6,729 nucleotides of DNA, from assembly GCA_041486365.1 (NCBI GenBank), contig JBGPLH010000183.1, positions 1 through 6,729 of the forward strand, written 5' to 3'. This stretch comes from JBGPLH01 sp041486365 [NCBI: Thermodesulfobacteriota bacterium] (lineage in GTDB: Bacteria; JAUYMQ01). The translations under genes were made by a program, and so were the position numbers. Positions 3,178 through 6,604 of this stretch are shown in pieces (the first letter of the stretch is position 1; each line of letters starts with the position of its first letter). Below the pieces are notes generated by a model, which was not told the DNA's origin, searched no databases, and saw only the letters and a list, made by a program, of their open reading frames with translations.

Positions 3178-3939
3178 CTAGAGGCTGCCCTTCGTCGAGA
3201 GCGCGCCGCGCACGCGGGGCTCGATCCGGCTGGCCGCATCGAGGGCGCGGCCGAGCGCCTTGAAGACGCTCTCCACGATGTGGTGCGAGTTGCGCCCGTA
3301 GCGCGTGTTCACGTGCAGATCGATCTGCGCGTTCGATCCGAAGGCGCGCAGGAACTCCTCCACGAGCTCCAGATCGAAGTTGCTGATCCGCCGCGCCGGG
3401 ATCTGCACGTTGTAGACGAAGTGCGGCCGGTTGGAGAGGTCCACGGACACCTCCGTGAGCGTCTCCGTCATCGGCACCACCCCGTGGCCGTACCGGCGGA
3501 TCCCGCCGTAACCCTCCAGCGCCTGGTGGAACGCGCGGCCGAGCACGATTCCGACGTCCTCCACCGTGTGGTGCAGATCGACCTCCAGGTCGCCGCGCGC
3601 CTTCAACTGGACGTCGAAGAAGCCGTGCCTGAAGGCGGCGCCGAGCAGGTGATCGAAGAAGGGGATCCCCGTGTCGACGTGGTACTCGCCCGTCCCGTCG
3701 ATCACGAGCCGCAGCGCGATGTCGGTCTCCTTCGTCTTGCGCGTCACCTCGGCGCGGCGCGCGGCTCTCGATTCGCCCTTCGCGCGGGGCGTCCTGTCGT
3801 TCGACTCGTTGGATACTCTCGGCCCTCGCTTCGCTCGGGACATCACTTGGAATTTTCTCGGCCCTCGCTTCGCTCGGGACATCACTTGGAATTTTCTCGG
3901 CCCTCGCTTCGCTCGGGACCTCAGTGTGCCCTTCTTCAT
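3178..3939 (-). CDS. hisB: Imidazoleglycerol-phosphate dehydratase HisB with repeat-encoded N-terminal extension
   Basis: Monofunctional Mn-dependent dehydratase that converts imidazole glycerol phosphate to imidazole acetol phosphate. The core begins near residue 61 (RRAEVTRKTKETDI) and has both metal-binding signatures, HHTVED (123-128) and HHIVES (219-224), GIPFFDHLL (91-99) and the typical STKGSL C-terminus. There is no phosphatase domain, so histidinol-phosphate phosphatase must be separate. The core is about 193 residues, normal for the family, but the protein is 253 because of an extra N-terminal segment rich in Arg, Lys and Ser that contains 2.6 copies of SRAKRGPRKFQVM. I keep the ATG at 3939 because it overlaps the hisD stop (ATGA) and has a GGAGGA Shine-Dalgarno 4 nt upstream; the ATGs inside the repeats and a GTG near the core lack a well-placed SD. 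Processing or internal initiation remains possible. Confidence 0.95.
   Translation of the reverse strand: MKKGTLRSRAKRGPRKFQVMSRAKRGPRKFQVMSRAKRGPRVSNESNDRTPRAKGESRAARRAEVTRKTKETDIALRLVIDGTGEYHVDTGIPFFDHLLGAAFRHGFFDVQLKARGDLEVDLHHTVEDVGIVLGRAFHQALEGYGGIRRYGHGVVPMTETLTEVSVDLSNRPHFVYNVQIPARRISNFDLELVEEFLRAFGSNAQIDLHVNTRYGRNSHHIVESVFKALGRALDAASRIEPRVRGALSTKGSL
3818..3918 (-). repeat. 39-bp tandem repeat, 2.6 exact copies, inside the hisB 5' coding region
   Basis: Unit A (3880-3918) and unit B (3841-3879) are identical over 39 bp, and a third partial copy (3818-3840) is identical over its 23 bp; the sequence after it (AGTATCCAACGAG) looks like a decayed continuation. Thirty-nine bp is 13 codons, so copy number can change without a frameshift; the hisB frame reads SRAKRGPRKFQVM. 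Each unit has a 17-nt core, CCCGAGCGAAGCGAGGG on the coding strand (plus 3823-3839, 3862-3878, 3901-3917), and an A/T-richer spacer (AAAATTCCAAGTGATG) that stands out from the GC-rich surroundings. The core also matches a segment of murA. It is most likely a dispersed palindromic-type repeat in coding sequence. Confidence 0.9.
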
Positions 3940-5291
3940 GCCGTCCTCCGTCGGGCGCGGCCCGCGCCCCGTCTGCGCTTGTCCCGGTCCGCATCGAGCC
4001 GGACCCGCACCGCTTCCGCGTGCCCGGGCAGCCCCTCGAGCAGCGCGAGCGACTCGGCGTAGGGACCGAGCCGCCCGAGGCCCGCCGCCTCCACCTCGAT
4101 GACGCTGGAGCGCTTCACGAAATCCTGGGCGCCCAGCGGCGAGAAGAAGCGCGCGGTGCCCGCCGTGGGCAGCACGTGATTCGGCCCCGCCACGAAATCG
4201 CCGAGCACCACGCTCGTCCGGTGCCCGAGGAAGATCGCCCCCGCGTGGCGGATCTTCTTCAGGAGCAGATCCGGCCGGGCGACGGCCAGCTCAAGGTGCT
4301 CCGGCGCGAAGCGGTTCACGAGGTCCGCGGCCTCGGACAGATCCCGCGCGAGGATGAGCGCGCCACGGGATTCGAGGGACGCCATCACGATGCTCCGGCG
4401 CGGCGCCGCGGCCGCCCGGGCCAGGAGCCGCTCCCGCGCCTGCTCGACGAGCGCCCGCGAGGTCGCGATCAGCACCGCGGTTGCGTCCTCGTCGTGCTCG
4501 GCCTGCGAGAGAAGGTCGGCCGCCACCCAGTCCGCGCGTGCCGTCTCGTCTGCCACGACCACTATCTCCGTCGGCCCGGCGACGGCGTCGATCCCCACCG
4601 CGCCGAAGGCGAGCCGCTTCGCCGTGGCGACCCAGATGTTTCCCGGGCCCACGATCTTGTCCACACGAGGCACGCGGGCGGTGCCGTAGGCCATCGCCGC
4701 GATGGCCTGGGCGCCGCCGATCCGGAACACGCGATCGACGCCGGCCACGTCGGCCGCCGCGAGCACCATGGGATTGAGCGCTCCGCCGGTGGCCGGCGTG
4801 GCGAGCACGATCTCCCGCACGCCCGCCGTCCGGGCCGGAACGGCCGTCATGAGGACCGAGGACGGATAGGCCGCCTTGCCGCCCGGCGCGTAAACACCCA
4901 CGCGATCGAGCGGCGTCACCCGCTCGCCGATCGAGACGCCGGGCCCGCCGGCCATCCGCCATGATTTCGGGAGCGCCCGCGCGTGGAAGCGCTCAATTCG
5001 CGCGGCCACGACCTCGAGCGTCCGGAGCGCCTCGCGGGGCACCTGCTTCCGCGCGGCGCGCAGGGTGCGCCGGTCGACCTCGAGGGTCTCCGGCCTGACG
5101 TCGGCGCCATCGAAGCGGCGCGTGAAGCGGACCAGGGCGCGATCGCCCTCGCGCCGCACGGCCTCCATGATCGCGCGCACGCCCCGCTCGACGCGCTCTC
5201 CGTCCTCGATGGAGCGGGCGAGGATCCGGGCGAAGGCGCGCTCGAATCCCTTCTCGCGCGTCGAGAGGATCGGGAGCGACGGCGTCTTCAT
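3936..5291 (-). CDS. hisD: Histidinol dehydrogenase HisD
   Basis: Catalyses the last two oxidations of histidine synthesis, L-histidinol to histidinal to histidine, with NAD+ and a zinc ion. The 451 residues carry the full family signature [17 protein letters not shown] (234-250) running into LLSQAEHD. The expected zinc ligands and catalytic residues are present: Q263, H266, D365 ([10 protein letters not shown]), H424 (GLPGHAEA), and the E331-H332 pair in FAPEHLE. I chose the ATG at 5291 because it overlaps the murA stop (ATGA) and gives a normal N-terminus; the frame stays open further upstream only as a shadow inside murA. A GAAGG-type SD lies about 10 nt upstream. The last ~15 residues ([16 protein letters not shown]) form a strongly basic tail beyond the usual end. 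The stop overlaps the hisB start by 4 nt. Confidence 0.97.
3944..3949 (-). promoter_or_regulatory. hisB Shine-Dalgarno that supports the long HisB start
   Basis: GGAGGA lies 4 nt before the ATG at 3939, inside the last codons of hisD. It is the best SD match near any candidate hisB start. It supports translation of the repeat-encoded N-terminal extension rather than a start near the conserved core. Confidence 0.65.
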
Positions 5292-6604
5292 GACCCGGCG
5301 GCCTTCTCGCGGCGGATCTCCGCACCGAGCCGGGAGAGCTTCTCCTCGATGCGCTCGTAGCCCCGGTCGAGGTGGTACACCCGGGAGATCTCCGTCGTCC
5401 CCTCCGCCGCCAGGCCCGCAAGGACCAGGCACGCGCTCGCGCGCAGATCCGTGGCCATCACCGGAGCGCCCGACAGCCGGGGGACCCCGCGCACCACGGC
5501 GATCCCCGCCTCCACCGTGATGTCGGCCCCCATCCGCTGCAGCTCGCTCACGTGCATGAAGCGGTTCTCGAAGACGGTCTCCGAGATCCGGCTTGTGCCG
5601 GACGCGAGGGTCATGAGGGCCATGAACTGCGCCTGCATGTCCGTGGCGAAGCCCGGAAACGGGGACGTGCGGATGTCAGTGCTCCGGATCGGCTCCGGCG
5701 CGATTACCCGCAGGCCGTCGGCCTGGCGCTCGATCTGCGCGCCCGCCTCCCCGAGCTTCGCGATCACCGCCTCCAGGTGCTCGGCACGCGCGTTGCGCAG
5801 GGTGACGTCCCCACCGGTGATCGAGGCGGCCACCATGAAGGTGCCCGCCTCGATCCGGTCGGGCATCACCTTCACCTCGACCGGGAGGAGGAGGGGCACG
5901 CCTTCCACCGTGATCGTGTTCGTGCCGGCCCCCTCGATCTTCGCCCCCATGCGCGACAGCACGCGGGCCAGCTCGACGACCTCGGGCTCCTGGGCCGCGT
6001 TATCGATCACCGTCACCCCCTCCGCGAGGCTCGCCGCCATGAGGAGGTTCTCGGTGCCGGTCACGGTGATGGTCTCGAAATAGACCTTGCCGCCCATGAG
6101 CCGCTCGCAGTACGCGGTGACGTATCCGTGCTCGATCTCGATCTTCGCGCCGAGCGCCTCGAGCCCCTTCAAGTGCAGATTGATGGGACGCGCGCCGATG
6201 GCGCAGCCGCCCGGCAGCGAGACACGCGCGCGCCCGTAACGGGCCAGGAGCGGTCCGAGCACGAGGATGCTCGCGCGCATCGTCTTCACCAGGTCGTAGG
6301 GCGCCTCGGGCGTGTTGACGCGGGTCGTGTCCACCGCGAGGAAGTCATTAACAACGTCGGCCCTGGCATTGTCAGAGTCGGCCCTCCTTACGGTCGGGAC
6401 CTCGGGCCAGCGCCAGGTGACGCCCATGTGCTCGAGGAGGCGGAGCATCGTCCGCACGTCCTCCAGGCGCGGAACGCCCTGCACCACGCTCATGCCGGAC
6501 GTGAGAAGCGTGGCCGCGAGAATCGGCAGCACCGCGTTCTTCGCCCCGCTCACCTCGACGTCGCCTTCCAGGCGCCTCCCACCCTGGATCAGGATCCTGT
6601 CCAT
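5288..6604 (-). CDS. murA: UDP-N-acetylglucosamine 1-carboxyvinyltransferase MurA
   Basis: Cytoplasmic enzyme that transfers enolpyruvate from PEP to UDP-GlcNAc, the first committed step of peptidoglycan synthesis and the target of fosfomycin. The 438 residues show the two-lobed EPSP-synthase-like fold with the family motifs: K22-N23 in SGAKNA, the loop cysteine C134 in [11 protein letters not shown]110 in TMRAS, D322 in [10 protein letters not shown] and R414 in [14 protein letters not shown] Cys rather than Asp at the loop position predicts fosfomycin sensitivity of the enzyme. It is about 19 residues longer than E. coli MurA; compared with E. coli numbering (K22, R91, C115, as recalled) all of the excess falls between K22 and R110, around residues 68-92, where a repeat-derived insertion is seen. 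The ATG at 6604 has a G-rich SD. The stop overlaps hisD by 4 nt (ATGA), indicating translational coupling. Confidence 0.96.
6347..6403 (-). repeat. Repeat-derived in-frame insertion in murA, related to the hisB repeat
   Basis: This stretch encodes about residues 68-86 of MurA ([19 protein letters not shown]), which the family does not normally have between the strand around residue 65 and the [13 protein letters not shown] segment. Positions 6380-6403 match hisB positions 3899-3922 at 20 of 24 bases without gaps, and all four differences fall in the central 7 bases. A second TCGGCCCT at 6357-6364 repeats 6378-6385 with a period of 21 bp, so the insert itself looks like one and a half degraded copies. 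The insertion keeps the frame. The exact borders are estimated. Confidence 0.6.

Follow-up and report, generated by a model that had tools for sequence, protein, structure and literature searches.

Protein-coding palindromic repeats are best known from Rickettsia, and in-frame intragenic tandem repeats represent minisatellites in coding DNA. Rickettsia palindromic elements (RPEs) reside inside unrelated housekeeping genes. PMC3733652 presents REPs as hairpins of 20-40 bp, which occur singly or grouped and sometimes lie inside ORFs, where their clusters encode 43-82 aa. Proteins bearing RPE-1 at the N-terminus are reported there to be expressed in vivo (section 15), and many N-terminal REPs may be located outside the true coding regions owing to wrong start codons (PMC3733652). 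The same paper regards head-to-tail dimers as negligible in the CGTC families, and TGTC and CCTC as frequent variants of CGTC (PMC3733652). In the stem of the E. coli REPs, a mismatch of two bases is conserved and is needed for cleavage by their transposase (PMC8266576).

We analyzed a stretch of DNA of 6,729 nucleotides (hereafter the window), which comprises a his operon on the minus strand in the order of murA, hisD, hisB, hisH, a gene for a GNA1162/CsgG-like lipoprotein, hisA and hisF, followed by rpsU. A 39-bp tandem array was found in the 5' part of hisB, and the core of its unit was found again in murA:

3178-3939, minus strand: hisB, imidazoleglycerol-phosphate dehydratase, 253 aa (NCBIfam, Pfam PF00475)
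5288-6604, minus strand: murA, UDP-N-acetylglucosamine 1-carboxyvinyltransferase, 438 aa (family matches)
3817-3923, minus strand: tandem array within the 5' part of hisB, 39-bp unit, 2.7 copies (TRF; direct-repeat families D1 and D2)
3897-3922, minus strand: first core of the element in reading order (copy 1), taken as the reference; GAGGTCCCGA-GCGAAGC-GAGGGCCGA on the coding strand
3858-3883, minus strand: second core (copy 2), differing from the reference at one position (direct-repeat families, pattern scan)
3819-3844, minus strand: third core (copy 3), likewise differing from the reference at one position (direct-repeat families, pattern scan)
6378-6403, minus strand: fourth core, inside murA, with its reading frame shifted by one relative to the copies in hisB; GAGGTCCCGA-CCGTAAG-GAGGGCCGA on the coding strand

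The tandem repeat reported for hisB in the initial annotation is real (TRF, 3817-3923), with a period of 39 and 98% matches, and each 39-bp unit consists of the 26-nt core and 13 bp. The units at 3817-3855 and 3856-3894 are identical, third codon positions included, and the third one, which adjoins the start codon, comprises the core with one difference followed by divergence (82% over 39 bp). The two exact units claimed initially were thereby found again, but the partial copy spans approximately 29 bp by TRF rather than 23 bp. Nor is the array placed directly behind the ATG, as it begins after about seven codons (MKKGTLR). The period was correctly described as a multiple of three with the frame open, and the proposal of a recent tandem expansion is supported by the two identical units.

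We consider it probable that a short palindromic DNA element, similar to REPs or RPEs, was inserted in frame in both hisB and murA and then duplicated in tandem in hisB. Such an element, with the core GAGGTCCCGA-N7-GAGGGCCGA on the coding strand, could fold into a small hairpin interrupted by an internal mismatch. It would have entered two genes of the operon in frame, perhaps as a mobile hairpin, the sites being the 5' end of hisB and a loop of murA. The 39-bp unit of hisB may have been duplicated head to tail afterwards by slippage or unequal exchange. The additions would presumably be translated in vivo, and would be tolerated because they are located in unstructured places. What persists or spreads would be the DNA itself, as with intragenic REPs or RPEs, and the element may be dispersed elsewhere in the genome; the basic tail of HisB would be a by-product.

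The window element resembles RPEs as a putatively palindromic repeat inside unrelated housekeeping genes, but differs from them in having a GC-rich core of 26 nt, a direct tandem array and no CGTC end; in addition, none of the loci found gave the proteins of the window a rickettsial neighbour. With the intragenic REPs of the GTAG/CGTC type it shares the size, the grouping and the position in genes and, by prediction, the stem-loop form, and its predicted stem mismatch is broadly as in the E. coli REPs. On the other hand, the array of the window is head to tail, and none of the window's eight identified genes encodes a transposase, RAYT included. Neither GTAG nor CGTC was detected within 12 nt of any of the four copies on either strand, and the element thus lacks the tag of the REP super-family. 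TGTC and CCTC are present in or near the copies, partly within the core, and a CGTC precedes a degenerate half-copy at 6355, its count being not beyond chance. As in in-frame intragenic tandem repeats, the 39-bp unit has a length of a multiple of three and its copies are near-identical, but its core also occurs singly in another gene and in another frame. Altogether, the element probably works like an RPE or an intragenic REP, and by this analogy would be a new member of the broad kind but not of the tagged family.

The core in murA, which was missing from the initial annotation, is identical to the hisB core at 22 of the 26 positions in the same orientation, and is internal, approximately 200 nt into the gene. 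The following features were found around it:

6341-6403, minus strand: MurA insertion, residues 68-88 (21 residues, ends approximate; alignment of 22 homologues, pLDDT)
6346-6385, minus strand: degenerate duplication of the GGCCC end of the element with a spacing of 21 (6346-6364/6367-6385, 79%; family D8, albeit two-copy families this short can arise by chance)

Among the 22 MurA homologues aligned, all of which are distant, 18 were without 17-20 of the columns of the insertion, three (L123, L133 and L136) lacked 9-14 of the columns and possessed other residues, and one (L005) was truncated at the insertion and is therefore uninformative. The insertion was common to none of the 21 informative homologues. 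In the AlphaFold model of MurA (pTM 0.89), it was placed between two strands, with a pLDDT of <50 for residues 71-85, and the fold was otherwise confident apart from one other low-pLDDT segment (133-138).

The similarity between the two cores might be a coincidence in GC-rich sequence, with plain replication slippage having made the array in hisB. Recent slippage would be consistent with the two identical 39-bp units, but we regard the coincidence as very unlikely, since the ungapped match of 22/26 was reached in none of 4000 codon-shuffled windows (codons shuffled within genes; the maximum was 21, attained three times) and sits in a segment absent or shorter in the homologues of MurA. When five of the seven loop bases were masked, the pattern was exact in two copies, namely copy 1 in hisB, the closest to the start codon, and the one in murA, against an expectation of 0, and none of 200 dinucleotide shuffles held any match. 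What speaks for coincidence is the gapped alignment including the flanks, of which the score of 40 was barely beyond the null (39 for the best of 2000 shuffles). Further copies of the core in the window, searched with three mismatches and the loop masked, were at a chance-like level (7 matches against 3.5 expected), and the insertion sites seen in the 6.7-kb window are two only, hisB and murA.

An artefact of assembly or binning, as in a metagenome contig, appears extremely improbable for the insertion at the two sites. Tandem repeats are indeed prone to collapse or expansion, but hisB and murA are both open frames, with family matches along the cores flanking the additions on either side, and the in-frame placement of the element in murA would hardly be expected from such an error.

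The cores in the two genes are read in different frames. In murA, the core reads GAG GTC CCG ACC GTA AGG AGG GCC GA and gives VPTVRRAD, while the hisB frame, shifted by one, reads G TCC CGA GCG AAG CGA GGG CCG A and gives SRAKRGPR. Thus, DNA rather than peptide is conserved between the two. GC3 is low in the additions, at 0.618 for residues 8-41 of HisB and 0.714 for residues 68-88 of MurA; the HisB core has a value of 0.959, and murA outside its addition one of 0.938. This pattern of frames and GC3 is the prediction of an inserted DNA element, not of a selected basic peptide. Five of the six frames of the 39-bp unit and all six of the hisB core are free of stop codons, and the hisB-type core would thus be able to enter genes in any frame; the murA variant would hold a stop in the hisB frame.

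The long form of HisB, in which the array is coding, had been proposed initially on the basis of its start signals, and these were confirmed. The features around the start of hisB are as follows:

3936-3939, minus strand: ATGA overlap of the hisD stop and the hisB start (sequence)
3944-3949, minus strand: GGAGGA, Shine-Dalgarno-like site of the long hisB form (anti-SD pairing)
3760-3939, minus strand: N-terminal leader of HisB, residues 1-60, basic and predicted to be disordered (composition, AlphaFold)
3178-3759, minus strand: enzyme core of HisB from residue 61, stop codon included (NCBIfam, PDB matches, AlphaFold)

The computed anti-SD pairing before ATG1 (-9.5 kcal/mol) is the strongest of the in-frame candidates, the others being CTG6 (-5.3 kcal/mol), GTG19, ATG20, GTG32 and ATG33 (-3.0 kcal/mol each) and GTG65 (-1.8 kcal/mol), and the ATGA overlap with hisD accords with the same start. 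GTG65 is the sole start codon near the enzyme core and is located inside it, the core beginning at about residue 57-61 according to the NCBIfam and PDB matches. A downstream start, which would make the array non-coding, was rejected because the SD pairing is weaker at every in-frame candidate tested. In the AlphaFold model of HisB (pTM 0.74; the models took the window and locus sequences as input), residues 1-57 were almost wholly of pLDDT <50, and the blocks of the core were mostly of 90 or higher, with two at 83 and 89 and the C-terminal blocks at 77 and 53. Judging from the predicted pTM and pLDDT, the folds of the hosts appear to be kept with the inserts in tolerant positions, and the two protein-coding genes that carry the in-frame insertions, hisB and murA, are unrelated to each other.

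As the initial annotation stated, the leader is strongly basic, with 21 K+R against 3 D+E in residues 1-60. This composition, along with a unit that is open in frame and a multiple of three, would suit a functional basic tail, by which the 24-mer shell would contact nucleic acid or a partner through its SRAKRGPR motifs, this binding being the reason for the expansion of the repeat; two distant relatives (L004 and L113) may also carry a leader, 16-26 aa long, with many basic residues. We nevertheless regard the functional tail as unlikely. In murA, the same DNA core is read in the other frame and gives an unrelated, slightly acidic peptide (3 K+R and 5 D+E in the insertion), and the initial view of the repeat as a feature of HisB serving a basic peptide is hence difficult to maintain. 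Moreover, the two full units of hisB are identical in DNA down to the third codon positions, and none of 119 homologues was found to repeat an 8-aa peptide in the 80 aa upstream of the HisB core. The repeat has the look of inserted DNA and not of a trait particular to HisB. Most likely, the two proteins are decorated by a palindromic element, which expanded recently in tandem in hisB, rather than HisB having evolved a basic tail, and the case is a warning that repeat-derived leaders should not be taken for functional tails.

Both variants of the core are predicted to fold into an imperfect stem-loop composed of an outer stem, an internal mismatch and an inner stem of two pairs. The predicted loops are GAA in hisB and GTAA in murA, with the inner stem moved by one base in the latter, and the inner pairs differ yet pair. 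The stability of the stem-loop is within the range of shuffles (z of -0.50 to 0.42 as DNA and -1.55 to -0.47 as RNA). The loop sequence in hisB, GCGAAGC, co-occurs in published papers with the words "extraordinarily stable" and "hairpin". It is quite improbable in our opinion that the repeats act in the mRNA, as stem-loops that tune translation or transcript stability near the hisB start with the coding being incidental. The array is indeed close behind the start codon, the RNA folds of single cores amount to -9.6 and -9.7 kcal/mol, and REPs at 5' ends have been proposed as post-transcriptional elements, possibly being extragenic through wrong start calls (PMC3733652). However, the 136-nt 5' region containing the array showed no more stable folding than its shuffles (z 0.59), the murA copy lies some 200 nt inside its gene, and the SD pairing of the downstream in-frame starts falls well short of that of ATG1.

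Among the 119 distinct homologues of HisB, the nearest in-frame start precedes the core by 1-9 aa in 116 and by 14, 17 and 26 aa in the remaining three, and an open frame able to start at least 40 aa upstream was found in seven. The repeat as a feature of the HisB family was rejected with these homologues. The closest ones are 58-59% identical over the core, and thus give no date for the insertion; the identity was at most 57% among the best 80 of 229 relatives from the contig scan, and at most 58% (58.5% by BLAST) in the phylum around L004 (198 genomes). Searches by phylum starting from G002 and G205 covered largely the same genomes, and the class of G001 one genome. As one half of what would speak against its proposal, the initial annotation had named relatives that start HisB at the core, and this applies to the homologues found, all of which are at most 59% identical. 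As there is no good start at the HisB core of the window and the relatives are no closer than this, we read the insertion as peculiar to this lineage.

As a repeat, the element was found in none of eight other genomes. The core pattern had isolated matches in 31 of 395 genomes, against approximately 46 with a reversed control pattern, and in 14 of 245 genomes, against approximately 15, both being at the background level; the genomes of the phylum of L002 (Nitrospirota) were scanned for the pattern alone. With three mismatches and the loop masked, no match to the core was detected in the loci outside those fetched by the pattern and the stretches around such hits, and the other loose matches come from loci fetched by the pattern itself. 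The matches with two mismatches in L156 and L187 represent one single site, isolated within what we take to be the coding sequence of etfB. Text searches of the literature found neither the 15-mers of the core nor an N-terminal extension together with the name of the HisB enzyme, which does not make the element undescribed or prove novelty.

A viral origin was rejected, since the 20-mer CGGCCCTCGCTTCGCTCGGG was present in four viral contigs without the flanks of the element and the longer 26-base pattern in none. In the viral contigs L124 (3665-3684), L126 (1211-1230) and L127 (5060-5079), the 20-mer has flanks unlike those of the window element and lies slightly past the C-terminal end of large proteins, which we presume from their appearance to be variable targets of DGRs. 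Separately, genome G387, which is of lower GC, contains hairpin-like repeats near TCCCGAGCGAAGCGAGGG with 0, 1 and 3 differences (L182, 5240; L183, 4934 and 7916), each preceded by a stretch like TGCTTCGCTTG or similar. Two near-matches of the hairpin in this genome have other flanks and apparently lie between larger ORFs.

In a tentative reading, which we regard as less likely than not, the window would represent an untagged, GC-rich palindromic family that spreads through the coding genes of an uncultured bacterial lineage, ever making new disordered protein segments. If two biosynthetic enzymes of a GC-rich lineage clearly read one core in two frames, and one of them has freshly expanded it in tandem, the same route to new protein segments would be placed outside Rickettsia.

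The operon has some further peculiarities. murA and hisD overlap by 4 bases (5288-5291) with no hisG between them in the window, and the gap between the two genes in related operons is, by matches, approximately 770 bases (L004) and 710 bases (L002), leaving room for hisG. The gene for the GNA1162/CsgG-like lipoprotein is located between hisH and hisA (1779-2528), and weak relatives of its product (24-40% identity) were found in 18 of 147 loci. The C-terminal tail of HisD, of which 17 residues are encoded at 3939-3989, is strongly basic and adjoins the start of hisB.
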